NCBI RefSeq assembly: GCF_029759835.1
Contig: NZ_JAJJND010000022.1
Span: 1 to 32,399, forward strand
DNA from: Acetobacter sp. AN02
GTDB lineage: Bacteria > Pseudomonadota > Alphaproteobacteria > Acetobacterales > Acetobacteraceae
Reading direction: 5' to 3'
Length of the DNA stretch: 32,399 nucleotides
Part shown: positions 415-8,140 of the stretch, in pieces
Numbering within the stretch: the stretch's first letter is position 1
How the letters are laid out: each line of letters begins with the position of its first letter
Notes under the pieces: generated by a model
What the model was told of the DNA's origin: nothing
Database searches by the model: none
Seen by the model: the letters and a program-made list of their open reading frames with translations, nothing else
Translations under genes and position numbers: made by a program

Positions 415-936
415 TCAGAGGGCGGCGTATTGTCTGCGGAACCAGACAAGGGCCTTGCCGGAGCCGGGCTGCAGATTAATGGTCTCGACCTCTCCGAAGA
501 TGACCGTATGCGTTCCGACTTCTGCGATATCGGCAATGCGGCACTCCAGAGATGCCAGAGCATCACCGAGGACCGGCAGTCCTCCGGCGCCGCGTTTCCA
601 GTCTCCTTCAGAAAAGCGCTCATCCATACTCAGACGACTGGTGGCGAAGCGGCCGGAGAGCGTGTCATGGCTGTCGGAAAGAATGTTTACGGCCAGACGA
701 CCATGGGCGAACAGATGGGCATGAGAGCTGCTGGTGCGGTTGACGCAGACGAGAATGGTCGGCGGCGTATCTGATACGCTGCTGACGGCGGAGGCTGTAA
801 AGCCGTGGCGTCCGTTCGGACCGTCTGTGGTGATGATGGTTACGGCACTGGCCAGAAGCGACATGGCATCACGAAAGGAGGCGGTATCAACGGAATTCCT
901 GATATTGTTCTGTGTGAGATGAGTGATCGCATTCAT
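415..936 (-). CDS. Flavin reductase (Flavin_Reduct family, HpaC/RutF-like)
   Basis: This 173-aa protein belongs to the short flavin reductases that use NAD(P)H to reduce free FMN or FAD and pass it to a partner monooxygenase in the cytoplasm. Visible family marks are the N-terminal FRDAMSLLASAVTIITTDG segment, GFTASAVSSVSDTPPTILVCVNR at about residues 45-68, and the SLECRIADIAEVGTHTVIFGEV stretch near the C-terminus. The length is normal for the family. Its ATG overlaps the MFS stop codon in an ATGA (933-936), so translation is probably coupled. It is the last gene of the six-gene operon. Here it most likely supplies FMNH2 to the SsuD-, NtaA/DszA- and DszC-like oxygenases, taking the role of SsuE, to which it is not closely similar. 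The partner assignment is inference from context. Confidence 0.88.
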   Translation of the reverse strand: MNAITHLTQNNIRNSVDTASFRDAMSLLASAVTIITTDGPNGRHGFTASAVSSVSDTPPTILVCVNRTSSSHAHLFAHGRLAVNILSDSHDTLSGRFATSRLSMDERFSEGDWKRGAGGLPVLGDALASLECRIADIAEVGTHTVIFGEVETINLQPGSGKALVWFRRQYAAL

Positions 937-2429
937 GGCGGTGTTCTCCGTGCAAGGGAAAGGGAGGGCAGGGGGGCAGCATTGCAGGACGGCGTGCGGA
1001 GGACGGCAAGGGCCGGATCGTTGTCAGGGTCGTACCCGAACACTTCCCATCGAATGACCAGGTGCAGCAGGATACCGATGACCGGTGCGCTGATCATGAT
1101 CCAGAACACATTGGTTCCGAGAGTTGAGAAAAGACCAGGCAATGACCAAAGGGTTACGGTTGATGCGATTCCTGAGGTGATCTGTGTGAGGCCGATACCG
1201 GTACCTCGCAGCTCTGTCGGAAAGCTGAGTGTGGGATAGACCATCTGCTGGCATCCGGGACCAAAGCCCTGCGCGAACAGGAAGGCTGCAAATCCGCCGA
1301 TAAACAGGACAATTTCCGGAGAAGAATGCGGTGTTCCGATCAGGGCGAGCGTGGCTATGCCTGCAATCTGGACGGCAAAACCTGCAAAGTTGATGCTGCG
1401 TGATCTGAAGCTGCGTGTGAGGCTTATACCGATAAGGCCGCCTGTAAATGCGAAGACAAGATTGAGCAGGATCGAGATCATCAGCACTTTGGTACGGGAG
1501 ATGTGAAGTGTGGAGGCGAGAAGCGTTGGGGCCCCGAAGGCGATGGTCGCGTATGAATAGGCGCTTACAATTTTCAGGCCGGAAACCAGAATGGTACGGT
1601 TTAAGAGAGGGGCGCGTAATAACGCAGAGGTTTTCGGAGGTTCGGGACGTGGCTGCTGGACGCTCACCTGCAGTATGGGATCGACGCCGTGTGTCGCACG
1701 CAGGATTTCCGCTGCTTTCTTGAGGTCACCATTGCGCGCGACCCAGACAGGTGATTCACTCATATAGCGGCTGCGGACCAGGATGATGATCAGTGCAGGC
1801 ACCGCTCCGAATGCCAGTGATGCACGCCACAGCCAGTCCGGGTGATCGGCCGGTGTGATGGCATTGAGTGCGAATACGATCAGGAAGCAGACGGAAGACG
1901 CGGCATACCATGTCGGGCACCAGGCCGCGACACGCGATGCCTTGCTGCCTTTTCCGGAAAGTTTTGAAAATTCCGAAAGGAATGCCATGGCGACGGGAAG
2001 GTCCATACCGACGCCGAAGCCCATCGCGAAGCGAGCCACGATCAGCACGGATGCGGTCGGGGCGAAACCGGCGGCCAGAGCGGCAATGACGAAGCATGCC
2101 ATATCCGCCATGAAGACGGCATACCGGCCGATGCGATCCGTCAGCCAGCCGCCGACGACACAGCCGATGATCGTGCCGGCCGTCATGGCAGCGGCGACAA
2201 GGCCTGTACGGGCGTCTGTCAGACCGAAATGTTTCTGAACATCCCCGATGCCATAAGACAGGGTTGTCAGATCATAGGCATCGAGAAACACGCCGCCAAG
2301 TGCGAGAAGTACGATGGTATTGGCGTGGCCTTTCCCGGAGGGGCCACGATTGACGATGGCCGAGATATCACCGGCCGAGCGGATGACGGGACGATCCGGC
2401 GGGATCGTCTCAGACTGAACATGCGCCAT
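933..2429 (-). CDS. MFS transporter, sugar-porter-like, in organosulfur operon
   Basis: A 498-aa integral membrane protein of the major facilitator superfamily with about 12 hydrophobic segments. The loop 2-3 signature GGWLTDRIGRY is present near residue 95, followed by the RFAMGFGVGMDLPVAMAFLSE helix. The ESPVW segment of the central loop and ELRGTGIG in the second half match the sugar/aromatic-acid porter branch. The start at 2429 lies 2 bases after the upstream FAD-protein stop and the end overlaps the flavin reductase start by 4 bases, so it is embedded in the operon. A secondary transporter occupies the place where ssuABC would normally supply sulfonates, so it probably imports, or possibly exports, an organosulfur compound or its desulfonated product. 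The substrate cannot be read from sequence. The N-terminal 35 residues before the first helix and a Pro/Ala-rich tail are cytoplasmic. Confidence 0.87.
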   Translation of the reverse strand: MAHVQSETIPPDRPVIRSAGDISAIVNRGPSGKGHANTIVLLALGGVFLDAYDLTTLSYGIGDVQKHFGLTDARTGLVAAAMTAGTIIGCVVGGWLTDRIGRYAVFMADMACFVIAALAAGFAPTASVLIVARFAMGFGVGMDLPVAMAFLSEFSKLSGKGSKASRVAAWCPTWYAASSVCFLIVFALNAITPADHPDWLWRASLAFGAVPALIIILVRSRYMSESPVWVARNGDLKKAAEILRATHGVDPILQVSVQQPRPEPPKTSALLRAPLLNRTILVSGLKIVSAYSYATIAFGAPTLLASTLHISRTKVLMISILLNLVFAFTGGLIGISLTRSFRSRSINFAGFAVQIAGIATLALIGTPHSSPEIVLFIGGFAAFLFAQGFGPGCQQMVYPTLSFPTELRGTGIGLTQITSGIASTVTLWSLPGLFSTLGTNVFWIMISAPVIGILLHLVIRWEVFGYDPDNDPALAVLRTPSCNAAPLPSLSLARRTPP

Positions 2430-2431
2430 TC

Positions 2432-3847
2432 TTATACCCCGATGCAGGTGTGCTGCGGGAGAAGGGGGATGGTATCCGCGAGAGCACGGGCTACGGATTC
2501 AGCATTGGCGGTGACTTCGGGCAGACCCATCAGTTCGCCGAATGTACCCCGCGACATCGGACCGGCAATAAAAAGACGGTCATGAGAAAGACCTTTCGAA
2601 AAAGCCCTGTGATCAGAGGATGTATGAATACCGAGCCCTGTGGGATCGGCTTCGATCAGTCCCTGCAGATGCAGTGATCGCAGACAGGCGTTACGGGTGA
2701 GAAGTCCTGCGTGATCCGGGCCGGTTGCATTGATGACATATTCGGCCTTCAGGATCTGCGATGCGCTGTTGCGGGGCCGGATGGTCAGGGTAATTCCATC
2801 AGAGGCAGCCTCGATATTTTCGATACGGGCAGCAAGAATTCTCAGGCTTCTCTCTGCGAGCCTCCGATCCAGGACGGCTTCGATCTGGGGTGCGATCCGG
2901 AACCGGTGTACATCCCAGAAAGGACGGAGATGTCGGATAAGACGGCGGCGTTCCTCAAGGGGCAGCGCGGACCAGATGGCAGGCCCCTGTCTGCGGGCAG
3001 CATCCAGCACGTCCTGCCATGGATGTTCCGGATTATCCGATATCGCTTTGCGGATAAGGGCCAGAATGGCATTTGCGGTGCGGGCGGGATCAGTGGTGAA
3101 ATCCCCGACCGGTGCCGGAGTGCCTGCGGCGTGGCCGCGTGAACGCAGACCGCGGCGGGAGAATGCGGTGATGACGCCATGATGGCCGCGTGCTGTCAGG
3201 CTTGCCACGATATCGGCCATGGTCAGCCCGGTGCCTGCGATCGCGATCCGGGCGTCGGGCGGGATGTTGTCCAGCGCTCCGTCAGGCCAAGGATCGGTAA
3301 TCAGGCGTGCATCTTCCGCAATGGCGCGGAGCGGGCCCGGGAGCGACGGGGGAAGATGGGAGGTTGCGATCACGACGGCGTCCGCACGGAGACTCCGGCC
3401 GGAGCCGGTTGTGATTTTCCACCCGTCTCCGTCTTTCTGAATGGAGGTTGCGCGCTCCTGGATATGAAGCAGGCGTCCGGCTTTCTGTTCAGGCGCGAGA
3501 CGTGCGGCGAGATAGGCTCCGAATGCCGCCCGTGAGGGGTAGATGTGTCCGTCCGGGGTAAAGGCGTCGGGGTCGTCTGCTTTCAGCGCGGCATGATCAA
3601 GCCATGAATTGAAATCACCCGGAGCCTGCGTATCGATGCTCATGCGTGCAGCCGGGACGTTGATCCGATGCACCGGATCGGATGTGCCGTATGCCTGTCC
3701 TGCACCAAGCCGGGAACGCGGTTCGATGATGGCGACTGAGTCCGCACCCAGATCGGGACGGGCACGGAGCAGATGCCAGGCGACCATGGCGCCTGTTGCG
3801 CCGCCGCCCGTGACTGCAACCCGTACGTGGAGATCAGACTGTGGCAT
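2432..3847 (-). CDS. FAD/NAD(P)-binding oxidoreductase (NAD_binding_9, YdhS-like)
   Basis: The 471-aa protein opens with a beta strand and a dinucleotide-binding loop, VAVTGGGATGAMVAWHLL at about residues 9-26, then RSRLGAGQAYGTSDPVHRINVPAARM. This combination is typical of the YdhS-type FAD-NAD(P)-binding family. A second nucleotide-binding segment, IAGTGLTMADIVASL, lies near residue 205, and VINATGPDH near 375 is the usual return motif of two-dinucleotide-binding flavoproteins. The reaction of the family is unsettled. The ATG shares its first base with the SsuD stop codon (TGATG at 3845-3849), so it is translationally coupled. Position inside an organosulfur operon suggests a redox step on the sulfur compound or its product. 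It might also be an N- or S-oxygenase-like enzyme. No specific substrate is claimed. Confidence 0.8.
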   Translation of the reverse strand: MPQSDLHVRVAVTGGGATGAMVAWHLLRARPDLGADSVAIIEPRSRLGAGQAYGTSDPVHRINVPAARMSIDTQAPGDFNSWLDHAALKADDPDAFTPDGHIYPSRAAFGAYLAARLAPEQKAGRLLHIQERATSIQKDGDGWKITTGSGRSLRADAVVIATSHLPPSLPGPLRAIAEDARLITDPWPDGALDNIPPDARIAIAGTGLTMADIVASLTARGHHGVITAFSRRGLRSRGHAAGTPAPVGDFTTDPARTANAILALIRKAISDNPEHPWQDVLDAARRQGPAIWSALPLEERRRLIRHLRPFWDVHRFRIAPQIEAVLDRRLAERSLRILAARIENIEAASDGITLTIRPRNSASQILKAEYVINATGPDHAGLLTRNACLRSLHLQGLIEADPTGLGIHTSSDHRAFSKGLSHDRLFIAGPMSRGTFGELMGLPEVTANAESVARALADTIPLLPQHTCIGV

Positions 3848-5010
3848 CAGGACGCCGAAACCTGTTCCGGCCGGTGGCTGCCTGCGATTGTCTCTCCGAA
3901 CGGTCCCATATTGCTGGAGGCTGTGGCGGTGCGGATCGGATGTGCCACGGGCAGCAGCGGCAGCACCAGTTCTCCGAATGTGTAGGCTTCCTCCAGATGC
4001 GGGTAGCCTGACAGGATGAAACTATCGCAGCCTGCCTCGCGATATTCATCGATGCGTTCGGCAATCGTTGCGGGATCACCGACCAGCGCCGTGCCCGCGC
4101 CGCCGCGGACAAGGCCCACACCGGCCCACAGGTTAGGGCTGACCTCAAGCCTGTCCCTGCGGCCGCCATGTAATGCGCTCATCCGGGCCTGTCCGACGGA
4201 ATCCAGCCGGGCAAACACGGACTGGGCTTTGGCTATGGTGGCGTCATCCAGCCGGGAGATCAGGCGATCTGCGGCGGCCCATGCTTCGGCCGTGGTTTCG
4301 CGTGCAATGACGTGGAAGCGGATACCGAAGCTGACCTCCCGCCCTTCCTTGGCGGCGGCATCGCGCATGCGGGCGATTTTCTCGCGCACCTGTGCGGGCG
4401 GTTCACCCCATGTGAGGTATTTGTCGATCCGTCTGGCCGCAACCTGAATCCCTTCATCGGATGAGCCGCCGAAATACAGCGGCGGTCCGTTTTTCTGATA
4501 AGGCGGAAAGAGCAGGCGGCCGTCTTCAATCCGGAAATGCGGCCCCTTATGCTCCACCGTCTCTCCGCGCAGCAGTCTGGAGTAGATATCAAGAAATTCG
4601 TCGGTGATCTCGTATCGTGTCCTGTGATCCAGGAACAGGCCGTCACCGCCGTTCTCGCGCGGATCACCGCCTGTCACGACATTGATCAGCAGACGTCCGC
4701 CCGACAGGCGGTCGAGCGTGGATGTCATACGTGCGGCAAGAGTCGGTGACTGAAGGCCCGGACGGACGGCGACCAGAAATTTCAGGCGGGATGTGGATGT
4801 GATGAGTGATGAGGCGACGACCCAGGAATCCTCACAGCTGCGGCCCGTCGGCAGCAGGACGCCGTAATAGCCGAGGCTGTCGGCGGCCTGGGCAATCTGC
4901 TGAAGATAAGGCAGATCGACAGCGCGTCCGCCCTCGGTGGTTCCCAGATAGCGGCTGTCACCGTGTGTCGGGAGGAACCACAGAACGTTGATCTTGTCAG
5001 GCGTACTCAT
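3847..5010 (-). CDS. ssuD: FMNH2-dependent alkanesulfonate monooxygenase
   Basis: This 387-aa TIM-barrel luciferase-like enzyme cleaves the C-S bond of alkanesulfonates with FMNH2 and O2, giving an aldehyde and sulfite for cysteine synthesis. Compared from memory with E. coli SsuD (381 aa), it is similar throughout, including the opening [18 protein letters not shown] and [20 protein letters not shown]. The residues described as catalytic in E. coli (Cys54, Arg226, His228, Arg297, Tyr331) appear at Cys59, Arg231, His233, Arg302 and Tyr336, all with the same +5 offset. The start overlaps the upstream NtaA/DszA-like gene by 4 bases and the stop overlaps the next gene by 1 base. The reduced flavin presumably comes from the reductase encoded at the end of the operon. 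The gene name is secure; the preferred sulfonate is unknown. Confidence 0.95.
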
Positions 5011-6434
5011 GATGCATTCTCTGGTGCTCTGGAGGGGGTGTGCAGGTCTGTGCCATGGGTGCTGCGGCGGAGAGCTGCGGGGCGGCAGGCTGCGGCAGGA
5101 TGTGTTTCCGGCAGAAGATCATGTCCGAACAGCCGGTGCCGCAGTGTCTCTCCCGCACGCGGAGGGTCGGGCAGGCGACCGCGCCGGCGCAGTTCGGGGG
5201 CGATCAGCTCTGCGTAATCATCCAGTGTTTCAAAGGTATGATACTGACGCATGTTGATGCCATCGATTCCGTCCTCGTCGAGCCAGGATTCCACGGCGTC
5301 TGCAATCTGTTCGGGAGTTCCGACGACGAAAAAGCGTCCTTCATCAAAGGTGCTTATCTGATCTATGGCGTTTCCGATCGTCTGTTCCGTTCCGAAACGG
5401 CGGCCCATATTGCCGAAGGGACTGCCGGACTGTTCCAGCGCCTGAGCGATCGTCATGGAGCGGTCATAGGCGCGCAGATCAAGCTCGGCCTGTGCATGAA
5501 CCAGCGCGCCTTCGACGCTGTAGAACGTGCGGTACCGGGCCAGCTTGCTGCGTGCCTCTTCTTCCGTCCGTCCTGCAATCAGACCGGCCATGACATAGAA
5601 TTTCAGATCTGACGGATCGCGCCCCTGCCGGGCCGCTGCGGCACGGGTGCTGGCAATATTGGCGCAGACCTCATCACGCGTGCGGCCGCCGATGAAGATG
5701 GCCTCTGCATGGCGTGCGGCCGTCTGAAGGCCGCGGGACGAGCCTGTGGCCTGAAACAGAACCGGCGTGCGCTGGGGCGTCGGCTGCACGAGATGCGGGC
5801 CTTCGACGCGGAAATGGGGTCCGGCGTGATGAATGCGGTGGACACGTGCCGGATCGGAGAAGATATCCGCCTCCCTGTCGGCGACGATGGCATCGCTCTC
5901 CCAGCTTCCTTCCCAGAGTTTATAGAGTACCTCGAGATATTCGTCAGCACGCGTATAGCGGTCGTCGTGCGGGACCTCATCATTGAGGCCGAAGTTGCGT
6001 GCGGCGTTGGGCAGATAGGATGTGACGATGTTCCAGCCTGTCCGTCCGCCGGTCAGCAGATCAAGCGTGCTCATGCGCCGGGCAAAAGCGAAAGGGGGTT
6101 CGTAGGTCGTGGAAAATGTCGTGGCGAACCCGAGGTGTTCGGTCACTGCGGCCATTGCGGGGACGATGGACAGCGGGTCCAGGTTGGGAATCTGAAGGCC
6201 GAGGCGCAGGGCGGCTTCCACACCACCGAAGCGATCATAAACGCCCACGACGTCAGCCAGAAAGATCGCGTCCACACCTGCACTTTCCGCACGGCGCGCG
6301 ATATCTAGCCAGAACGCCATCTCTCCGAAGCGGTGCCGGTTATTACCAGGTGCCCGCCACATGCCGTGGACGATGTGGCTGACGCAGGCCATCTCGAAGA
6401 GATTGACGTGCAGCGTCTTGCGGGAGGCGGTCAT
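5007..6434 (-). CDS. FMN-dependent monooxygenase of the NtaA/SnaA/DszA family
   Basis: A 475-aa luciferase-like flavin monooxygenase. Family marks are the N-terminal [44 protein letters not shown], the loop [21 protein letters not shown] near residue 135, and [27 protein letters not shown] around 205-230. These are shared by nitrilotriacetate monooxygenase, dibenzothiophene-sulfone monooxygenase (DszA) and dimethylsulfide monooxygenase. The C-terminal ~50 residues are Arg/Pro/His-rich and probably disordered. The gene overlaps the DszC-like gene upstream (6431-6434) and ssuD downstream (5007-5010), both as ATGA. Pairing with a DszC-like protein and SsuD suggests a sulfone or thioether substrate that is oxidised and cleaved stepwise. 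The exact substrate is inference; the family call is firm. Confidence 0.88.
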
Positions 6435-7666
6435 GTGTCCTCTCCGGTCTTACGGGACTGGTTCACGCGCTTCTGAGCATCCCGATAGGGCGTCCAGAGC
6501 CTTGTGCCATTCAGTTCGAGATCGCCCAGTTCCCGCTGACGCTGTGCTGCCGGGTTATGGGAGGCCAGCGTACGTGCATTGCGCCAGTGCCGGTCAAACC
6601 GCCGCGCTTCCGAGGTGGCGGAGGCGCCTCCCACCTCAAAGAGTAGGGTTGTGGCTTCAAGGGTCTGCTGGGCGATGATCTGCTGTGCCCTGAAGATGTC
6701 CTCCTGGGCGGCCTCAATACGATCATCGTCCTTGTGGCCTGAAAGCCAGAGCGGCTCGACCGATGCCAGCGCCTCTGCGCCGCGATCGGCCAGTGCTGCC
6801 GCGGAGAAGGCGAGGGCGGAGAGTCGTCCGATCACGCCCTGCACGACGGGATCATCCCGCTGCACGACCTTTCCCGGTACGCCGAAAACGCGGGTGCGGG
6901 GGCGCACGAAGTCAACCGCATCGCGCAGTGCGGCTTCTGCGATACCGGCGAGTGTCGTGTTGTGAAACTGCTGGTAATAGGCGGCGAGAAACGCCTGAAC
7001 AGGAGTCTCTCCGGGCGGAGACCGGTCGATAATCTGCTCGGATGAGACAGGAACATTGTCGAAAACGGTTGTTCCGCTGCCGGTCAGGCGCTGACCGAAT
7101 CCGTCCCAGTCATCAATGCGCGTGACACCGGGTGCGTCGGCGGGCACCAGCACGCGGACGCGTTCATCACCCTGAGAGGCCCATACGATGATCCAGTCCG
7201 CATATAATGTGCCGGTGGAATAGTATTTGGTGCCGTTAAGACGCAGCCCGTCAGGCGATGTGGTCACGGCGGTCGTTACGGATGTTTCGTCTGAACGCTC
7301 GGCCATGGCCGCACCGAATATGGCGTTGCTTCTGATCAGCTGCAGCCAGCGCTCCTCATGCGGCAGACCGGCGCGCAGTGTTTCCACGAATGCGAAATGG
7401 GCGCGGAAAATCTGTGGAATATTTGAGTCTGCAGCTGCAAGTTTACGCAGGAGACGAAAGCTCTGAGGGAGTGATGCTCCTGATCCGCCTTTTTCCTGAG
7501 AAAGACGGAGACGTCCGAATCCCGCACGGGCCAAGGCTGAAACCGCATCGCGGGCCAGGGTCCGGTTGTGTTCGCGCTCTACAGTTCCACGGGCAATATC
7601 GTTGATATGGCCGAGAAATATTCCGTCGAGACTGTCAGGCGCCGGGGCATGGTGCGGGAGAGTCAT
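6431..7666 (-). CDS. DszC/SfnB-like flavin monooxygenase (acyl-CoA dehydrogenase fold)
   Basis: The 411-aa protein has the acyl-CoA dehydrogenase fold but belongs to the monooxygenase branch typified by DszC and SfnB, which use reduced flavin to oxidise sulfur compounds. Signatures are GFGRLRLSQEKGGSGAS near residue 50, LNGTKYYSTGTLYADWIIV near 155, IDDWDGFGQRLTGSGTTVFDNV near 190-215, and a C-terminal RHWRNARTLASHNPAAQRQRELG. This is the promoter-proximal gene of the operon. Its start codon at 7666 follows an AT-rich leader with only a weak ribosome-binding site, and the next Met is too far in to be a better choice. It probably performs the first oxidation, with the NtaA/DszA-like partner acting next. 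Whether the substrate is a sulfide, sulfoxide or sulfone is not visible. Confidence 0.85.
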   Translation of the reverse strand: MTLPHHAPAPDSLDGIFLGHINDIARGTVEREHNRTLARDAVSALARAGFGRLRLSQEKGGSGASLPQSFRLLRKLAAADSNIPQIFRAHFAFVETLRAGLPHEERWLQLIRSNAIFGAAMAERSDETSVTTAVTTSPDGLRLNGTKYYSTGTLYADWIIVWASQGDERVRVLVPADAPGVTRIDDWDGFGQRLTGSGTTVFDNVPVSSEQIIDRSPPGETPVQAFLAAYYQQFHNTTLAGIAEAALRDAVDFVRPRTRVFGVPGKVVQRDDPVVQGVIGRLSALAFSAAALADRGAEALASVEPLWLSGHKDDDRIEAAQEDIFRAQQIIAQQTLEATTLLFEVGGASATSEARRFDRHWRNARTLASHNPAAQRQRELGDLELNGTRLWTPYRDAQKRVNQSRKTGEDT

Positions 7667-8140
7667 AATAACTTTTTACCATCGTTGTTGGGTAATTAAA
7701 CCATCATTGATTCGTACAAATCGGTCAATAAAAAAATCAGATAAATTTGTTAAATTAATTATTCACTATAATTAAAAGTTATTTTTAGGAGGGGGTAGTG
7801 TCCGGCCATTACCCGACAGGGGGCGGATCTCTTGCGGGGTCACAAATCCGGAACAGGGTGCTGAAAGGGAGTGCAGAGGTGGATCCGCGTCATATATTTT
7901 TCTGACGATAAAGGGCTGCTGCTTTTTCGTGCCTGTCGGCTGTTATGCGCGCCGAATCACTGTGCCTGCGTTTTTTCCTGCTCGGGCGGAAGCGTCGGCG
8001 TCATGACATTTTGTGCTGCTGATCACATGTCTGATGGGCTGTTCATGTGGCATATTTTTCGGGTGTATGTTTCCTTCCCGTACACCGGCGGGACAGGTTT
8101 TTCTTTCCTCCTGCGCTTCGTGAGATAATGTCCCGGCATC
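7667..8140. promoter_or_regulatory. Divergent promoter region between the organosulfur operon and dnaG
   Basis: This 474-bp gap holds no credible gene. The part next to the operon (7667-7790) is strongly AT-rich inside otherwise GC-rich DNA, as expected for the operon promoter. It contains a 14-bp imperfect palindrome at 7709-7722 (GATTCGTACAAATC, centred on GTAC), and a minus-strand TTGACC lies just beside it at 7723-7728. No good -10 box at the usual spacing was found. The dnaG-proximal part is of ordinary composition, and no strong Shine-Dalgarno sequence precedes dnaG. Regulation by sulfur supply is expected from the gene content, but no CysB-like site could be identified. Confidence 0.45.

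Follow-up and report, generated by a model that had tools for sequence, protein, structure and literature searches.

A six-gene operon of Acetobacter sp. AN02 with a predicted route from organosulfur compounds to sulfite and a flavoprotein recurrently linked to SsuD

We analyze a six-gene operon of Acetobacter sp. AN02 and interpret it as a sulfur-scavenging system that probably converts an organosulfur compound to sulfite intracellularly. The operon occupies positions 415 to 7666 of the minus strand in a 32,399-nucleotide stretch of DNA (the window), which constitutes an entire contig (NZ_JAJJND010000022.1, here C102) of a 2.58 Mb genome in 186 contigs. This reading accounts best for the gene content because the assimilation of dimethyl sulfide (DMS) in Acinetobacter provides precedents for its steps. 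A first-pass annotation made from the sequence alone had already proposed an organosulfur function, which is borne out by a true SsuD with its sulfonate-binding motif and by two further enzymes in fold groups that oxidize and cleave organosulfur compounds. What appears to be new is a variant containing one uncharacterized enzyme, the product of gene 3, within a known kind of organosulfur pathway.

The minus-strand run from 7666 to 415 consists, in the open-reading frame (ORF) list of the window, of six touching ORFs, whose products we number so that P6 is encoded by the first transcribed gene and P1 by the last (transcription order P6, P5, P4, P3, P2, P1). P6 (6431-7666; 411 amino acids, aa) is an oxygenase of the acyl-CoA-dehydrogenase fold (group D), similar to SfnB, DszC and MsuC according to NCBIfam models and PDB relatives; P5 (5007-6434; 475 aa) is a DmoA/LadA-like flavin monooxygenase of the NtaA/DmoA family (group C), assigned through TIGR03860 and PDB relatives; P4 (3847-5010; 387 aa) is the SsuD alkanesulfonate monooxygenase dependent on reduced flavin mononucleotide, assigned through TIGR03565 and the sulfonate motif; P3 (2432-3847; 471 aa) is an FAD/NAD(P) protein of Pfam family PF13454 with the predicted fold of class B N-hydroxylating monooxygenases; P2 (933-2429; 498 aa) is a carrier of the major facilitator superfamily (MFS) by family scan; and P1 (415-936; 173 aa) is a RutF/HpaC-like flavin reductase that carries a Flavin_Reduct domain and reaches no equivalog cut-off. 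All six ORFs are present over the span first reported, and the recomputed junctions (in transcription order, overlaps of 4, 4 and 1 bases, a gap of 2 and an overlap of 4) agree exactly with those first given.

The assignment of P4 is the firmest of the six, raising the SsuD of the first-pass annotation to equivalog level. P4 scores 604 bits against the SsuD equivalog TIGR03565 (cut-off 518.2) and keeps, as W201, R231, R302 and A305, the sulfonate-binding motif that a study of MsuD gives as W195, R225, R296 and S299, with alanine as the consensus at position 299 (PMC8234197). By family and motif, P4 is thus classed as a true SsuD and predicted to release sulfite, and a gene of the sulfite/nitrite reductase family is present in the genome. 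The distribution of SsuD (E 1e-100) is patchy, with matches in 19 of 147 relatives and, within the genus, in 10 of 49 genomes. Outside the operon, this genome has a single luciferase-family match (G000:C110:10794-11804, equivalent to L112:3795-4805), which belongs to the MsnO8 family (TIGR03558, 417.8 bits; cut-off 166.95) and is not an SsuD.

The two oxygenases encoded ahead of SsuD had been described as DszC/SfnB-like and NtaA/DszA-like, a description that stands at superfamily level, but P6 falls below the cut-offs of both SfnB and DszC. P5 passes the NtaA/DmoA subfamily model TIGR03860 with 452.2 bits (cut-off 279.7), and its relatives of solved structure in the PDB are, best first, LadA (3b9n, 411 bits), DmoA (6ak1, 355 bits), hexachlorobenzene dehalogenase (303 bits), riboflavin lyase (268 bits), 3sdo (named nitrilotriacetate monooxygenase, 214 bits), DszA (5tlc, 207 bits) and EmoA (5dqp, 138 bits). 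The subfamily model and the matches to 3sdo and EmoA would also suit an operon directed at a nitrogen compound (nitrilotriacetate or ethylenediaminetetraacetate, for example), with P5 as an NtaA/EmoA-type enzyme; however, P5 lies closer to LadA and DmoA, on which ground this function was rejected as the main reading, and the companion SsuD matches at equivalog level and carries the sulfonate motif, leaving the nitrogen-compound alternative very improbable. For P6, the best NCBIfam model is SfnB (TIGR04022), and the nearest solved structures are 5xb8 (a thermophilic DszC-type enzyme), 8cda (an unnamed monooxygenase), MsuC (6u76) and DszC (4doy). Among the matches listed for P1, no named NCBIfam model exceeds its cut-off and none is SsuE.

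In the organosulfur scheme, whose substrate, reaction order, transport direction, P3 reaction and sulfur control we infer, P2 would import an organosulfur compound, for which a sulfide, sulfoxide or sulfone is the likeliest candidate; SsuABC would not be needed, because this compound would not be a ready-made sulfonate. P1 would give reduced flavin to P6, P5 and P4. P6 would oxygenate the sulfur, taking sulfide to sulfoxide or sulfone and/or sulfinate to sulfonate, P5 would cleave the C-S bond of the oxidized compound, and P4 would cleave the resulting alkanesulfonate to an aldehyde and sulfite, which sulfite reductase would then convert to sulfide for cysteine. P3 would act alongside SsuD as a self-sufficient NAD(P)H/FAD oxygenase, forming for instance its sulfonate from sulfinate or another anionic precursor. 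The MFS carrier, P6 and P5 would in this way handle the upstream compound, with SsuD and P3 making up the sulfite-releasing half. The sequence of oxidation, oxidation or cleavage, and desulfonation suggested earlier matches the order of the genes but need not be that of the reactions: P6, as a group D enzyme, may act before P5 or, as MsuC does, after it, both positions being open because MsuC and DszC share its fold, and gene order does not decide between them.

The precedents come from Acinetobacter baylyi, in which three group D enzymes take DMS through dimethyl sulfoxide to dimethyl sulfone, a group C enzyme converts the sulfone to methanesulfinate, MsuC oxidizes methanesulfinate to methanesulfonate and SsuD frees sulfite, with one reductase as the source of power (PMC13352529). 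The reverse-transcription quantitative PCR table of the same study has all six genes, ssuD included, strongly induced on DMS (PMC13352529).

P3, the product of gene 3 (2432-3847), is the component for which a role had been lacking: the families summed up at first as three flavin oxygenases, one reductase and an MFS carrier were all found, but this further protein of flavoprotein type had been given no function. Its best Pfam match is PF13454 (NAD_binding_9, 120 bits), with DAO and Amino_oxidase likewise above cut-off. A phmmer search of P3 against the PDB returned nothing at 0.001; a profile built from 49 P3 relatives reached 8cp2 at an E value of 5e-20 and then MbtG at 4e-10. The predicted structure (mean predicted local distance difference test score 93.8) combines two dinucleotide-binding domains with a helical insertion domain, as in class B flavin monooxygenases, and its best Foldseek match is the aspartate N-hydroxylase FzmM (8cp2), at an E value of 3e-24, about 20% identity and a root-mean-square deviation (rmsd) of 6-8 Å, with a TM-score normalized by query length of 0.75 at 7.1 Å, followed by PvdA (TM-score 0.66, rmsd 5.1), KtzI and SidA. 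The glycines of the FAD and NAD(P) motifs are kept throughout the 49 sequences (G14, G16 and G205 in all 49, G207 in 48, G19 in 47). The region from about 258 to 331, mostly helical in the model and rich in arginine, retains R315 in all sequences, R285 in 48, R317 in 46, and R302, R305 and R308 in 43 each. In FzmM, the helical substrate domain between the dinucleotide domains has a cluster of arginines to which sulfate and aspartate were bound (PMC10404684); the arginines of P3 would suggest an anionic substrate held near the flavin. The 24-row clade that holds P3 carries G437 and G441 in every row; at these positions, 16 of the other 25 rows have W and 20 have A.

Since the predicted structure is closest to FzmM and other class B N-hydroxylases, P3 may be a fourth, self-sufficient oxygenase of the operon. 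A more specific proposal, which we advance tentatively and with some doubt, is that P3 represents an undescribed clade of FzmM-type single-component class B oxygenases acting on anionic organosulfur compounds, for example turning a sulfinate or thiol into the sulfonate of SsuD. If this were true, P3 would replace or back up MsuC, and SsuD and P3 together would make up a portable module for releasing sulfur in alpha- and gamma-proteobacteria. P3 might instead be an accessory flavoprotein that shares only the fold, such as an NAD(P)H oxidase or reductase, or an enzyme that takes care of the aldehyde SsuD releases. Its matches to the broad families PF13454, DAO and Amino_oxidase would fit such a protein, as would the reach of the 49-sequence profile to FSP1 and ferredoxin reductases (about 1e-9), the occurrence of P3 relatives away from SsuD and the fact that P3 is the least identical of the six proteins to its counterpart in the relative G070 (64% against 67-90% for the others). 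The structural comparison argues in the other direction, N-hydroxylating class B monooxygenases filling the first 48 of the best 50 Foldseek rows, as does the retention of both dinucleotide motifs and of the arginine-rich helical region in nearly all of the 49 sequences; we give the accessory role a correspondingly low, though not negligible, probability.

The association of P3 with SsuD was analyzed over 41 of 47 named loci, namely those with a P3 ORF match over at least 300 residues (L089, L096 and L097-L100 were excluded for having none; in L096, a broken P3 adjoins broken pieces of SsuD). P3 was considered close at 41% identity or more and distant below that value, and SsuD was counted at 50% identity or more within 3.5 kb. 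SsuD accompanies 15 of the 19 close P3 loci against 3 of the 22 distant ones (Fisher p 3e-5), a value to be read, like the other p values, only as a guide, for the loci are related and the counts not phylogenetically independent. The same division is seen for the DmoA-like gene (7/19 close versus 0/22 distant), for the SfnB-like gene (6 versus 0) and for the MFS gene (5 versus 0). The 12 Acetobacteraceae rows that surround the window protein in the P3 tree all show linkage to SsuD (support 100/98), as do 21 of the 24 rows of the wider clade that includes the P3 of the window (support 91/80); the linkage label, assigned by hand, changes 6 times on this tree compared with 16.8 times in shuffles. 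Among the 147 relatives, 11 have P3 at 300 bits or more, 10 of these also have SsuD (E 1e-100), and 9 have both in one cluster. Five plasmid regions were chosen for P3, and SsuD is close by in two of them (K. saccharivorans [Komagataeibacter] and Paracoccus). Two P3-type proteins, 43-46% and 29-30% identical to P3, stand near each other at the rhizobial loci L061 and L072, and on pSymB of S. meliloti (Sinorhizobium; L106) two adjacent genes close to one for SfnB are annotated as P3-type FAD/NAD(P) proteins.

The co-linearity of the six genes exceeds chance, because the same order recurs at six other loci: those of G070 (L034), G035 (L035), K. europaeus (L056), two plasmids of K. saccharivorans (L101 and L105) and G672 (L132). 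The six-gene order, which the first-pass annotation had proposed to look for in relatives, is therefore shared, and its impression that the combination is unusual does not hold, since several acetic acid bacteria share the combination and Pantoea has it with the genes rearranged; the idea that the operon is unique to this genome was likewise ruled out. Identities to the window proteins are 64-90% in G070 and 47-77% in G035; G672 shows 75% for SsuD, 66% for MFS and 49% for P3, and may be of the same species as K. saccharivorans, as its identities are alike. Five of the six genes are found in Gluconobacter cerinus (L054), Asaia lannensis (L055), G639, G680 and G668, P1 being the one not detected in these stretches. 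In G070, positions 3869-4528 of L034, further downstream, encode a P5-like fragment (50% identity over 125 aa). The K. saccharivorans loci are on plasmids of 217-222 kb typed as non-mobilizable; the module can therefore be plasmid-borne. Each of the six genes is already annotated individually in public plasmid records. In the open-licence PMC literature, a keyword-dependent search, judged on capped listings and on abstracts, found neither a description of the operon nor a tie between P3-type proteins and SsuD, and a search there by the family name of P3 found nothing linking it to SsuD.

The MFS protein P2 (E 1e-80) occurs in 8 of 200 drawn Acetobacteraceae genomes and in all 8 is linked to the operon cluster or a variant of it, G049 representing a variant that has MFS and no SsuD in the stretch read. 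Outside the family, MFS adjoins P6- and P5-like genes in Pantoea and Burkholderia pyrrocinia. The carrier could nonetheless be an exporter of the leftover carbon skeleton, of an aldehyde-derived acid or of sulfite, with uptake by diffusion or unlinked carriers. Small dialkyl sulfides and sulfones can diffuse, MFS homologs outside Acetobacteraceae mostly do not stand beside other operon genes, and no named NCBIfam model exceeds its cut-off among the matches listed for P2; against this, the cluster linkage is complete in the Acetobacteraceae genomes that have the protein, and the two best named models of P2, though far under cut-off, are aromatic acid importers. We consider export unlikely.

The absence of SsuABC, for which MFS had been thought to substitute, was confirmed as far as the contig and the SsuA model go: none of the 36 ATP-binding cassette (ABC) ATPase matches of the genome lies on the contig, which ends 414 bases past P1, and no SsuA exceeds the cut-off in the genome, where the model gave three matched stretches in two proteins. 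No ssuABC therefore adjoins the operon on this contig, and the one SsuABC/TauABC-like cassette, at 58,528-61,098 of contig C1, is unlinked. Its binding protein, permease and ATPase stand together and belong to the SsuABC/TauABC superfamily, which would allow it to be the real sulfonate importer for P4 and MFS to serve another purpose. Its binding protein, however, scores 104.8 bits against an SsuA cut-off of 163.5 and is present in 44 of the 49 genomes of the genus, most of them without a close SsuD. Because it is near genus-wide while SsuD occurs in 10 of 49, the cassette is not SsuD-specific, and we judge this arrangement decidedly unlikely; a dedicated second SsuABC for P4 was dropped as a strong claim, the sole candidate being under cut-off with a nearly genus-wide binding protein. 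The substitution of ABC by MFS is, by gene content, one variant among several, because in several relatives the cluster includes TonB receptors or components of ABC systems. In K. saccharivorans, an annotated TonB-dependent receptor follows the operon, and Asaia has a protein resembling a TonB receptor, for which even the best models stay under cut-off. An SsuA-family protein of G. cerinus exceeds the cut-off (223 bits), as does one at L041 in the Acetobacter group; in the same group, L036 has a TonB-like protein and a family 5 binding protein and L038 has two permeases, all of them under the named cut-offs. TonB-like and permease-like ORFs were also seen by eye in G. cerinus.

Several observations weigh against the organosulfur-to-sulfite reading or parts of it. 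P5 scores 87 bits against the SfnG equivalog TIGR04021 (cut-off 382.95), and P6 scores 236.6 against SfnB TIGR04022 (cut-off 430.9) and 118.3 against DszC NF043015 (cut-off 850). Deletion of msuC left A. baylyi without a growth defect, sulfinate oxidation being reported to proceed without MsuC (PMC13352529), so a sulfinate oxidase is not strictly needed. The Foldseek alignments of the P3 model have an rmsd of 5-8 Å. The linkage counts suffer from the non-independence stated above: among the 19 close P3 loci, 3 lack SsuD in the stretch and 1 has it 4.2 kb away, and a nearby flavin reductase does not separate the P3 groups (6/19 close, 2/22 distant, p 0.12). P3 relatives lack SsuD in 3 of the 5 plasmid regions, with SfnB-type genes in its place on S. 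meliloti pSymB and Shinella WSC3-e and neither in Shinella HZN7. At 9 of 11 phylum-level loci outside Acetobacteraceae, MFS (48-52% identity) is without the other five genes nearby, which rules it out as a universal marker of a sulfur module. In the stretches read around the operons of Asaia and Gluconobacter, no P1 was found, and the MFS gene of G070 is split over two overlapping frames (L034:7457-8954), which suggests a frameshift or a sequencing error. Finally, neither a regulator nor a recognized control site was found upstream of the operon.

That upstream region, an AT-rich presumed promoter by sequence inspection (7667-7850), gave no sigma-70 match in a promoter scan. A conserved promoter motif was considered, but the sequences ahead of seven operons, including two near-copies, aligned poorly. 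The next gene upstream (8141, dnaG-like by eye) is divergent from the operon; the dnaG- and rpoD-like neighbors in the window, named by eye, were not found by tblastn at 16 relative loci, so that the genomic site is not shared with them. Rfam (gathering threshold) and tRNA scans of the window returned nothing. At the 3′ flank of the operon, sequence comparison within the genome detected a repeat (1-77) shared with four other contigs at 99-100% identity (C41, C31 and C2, at their first bases, and C165). Its copies adjoin an ORF that looks IstB-like by eye (IS21 family). The 3′ flank is probably bounded by a mobile element, because the repeat adjoins that ORF on other contigs, and this element could have deleted or masked a gene for a TonB receptor.

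In acetic acid bacteria, whose habitats include flowers, fruit, insects and vinegar, the entire route from organosulfur compound to sulfite could lie on one transcript, which some strains carry on a plasmid. The repeated pairing of P3 and SsuD bears on how sulfonates arise inside the cell, and points to P3 as a concrete uncharacterized enzyme.

Among known systems, the alkanesulfonate operon of the Escherichia coli type has the layout ssuEADCB; the present operon shares SsuD and a flavin reductase with it, but has no SsuABC beside SsuD, carries extra oxygenases and encodes a P1 that matches no SsuE model among the matches listed. With the dszABC operon of 4S desulfurization, it has in common that P6 and P5 belong to the fold groups of DszC and DszA; it differs in lacking a DszB-type desulfinase among its six families, in having SsuD as the last step and in the score of P6, far below the DszC cut-off. 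The predicted fold of P3 resembles FzmM (8cp2) and the class B N-hydroxylating monooxygenases, including a helical, arginine-rich part between dinucleotide-binding domains, whereas P3 is about 20% identical to FzmM, some 130 residues shorter and encoded in a sulfur operon. The assimilation of DMS and dimethyl sulfone in A. baylyi and Pseudomonas (dms, sfnG/msuD, msuC, ssuD, msuE) likewise combines group D and C-S-cleaving group C oxygenases with SsuD and a reductase and ends in sulfite, but the A. baylyi genes lie in several places (PMC13352529), whereas those here form one six-gene operon. The operon further departs from that system in its DmoA/LadA-type P5, which fails the SfnG model, its MFS carrier and P3. 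On NZ_CP023037 and NZ_CP036405 of K. saccharivorans, the gene content and order are identical to those of the window operon, but the locus is plasmid-borne, is followed by the TonB-dependent receptor and, for the three proteins compared, shows identities of 75% (SsuD), 66% (MFS) and 48-49% (P3). Plasmid clusters of Pantoea (pPag1 of P. vagans C9-1 and Pantoea sp. SO10) also bring together SsuD, P3, a luciferase-like monooxygenase, MFS and a P6-like oxygenase, but in another gene order, at lower identity and with methionine-type ABC genes nearby; strain SO10 additionally has annotated sulfonate-binding proteins in the vicinity, and on pPag1 a divergent sigma-54-dependent regulator adjoins the ssuD-P3 cluster (L113:2443-4332), offering a lead to sulfur control.

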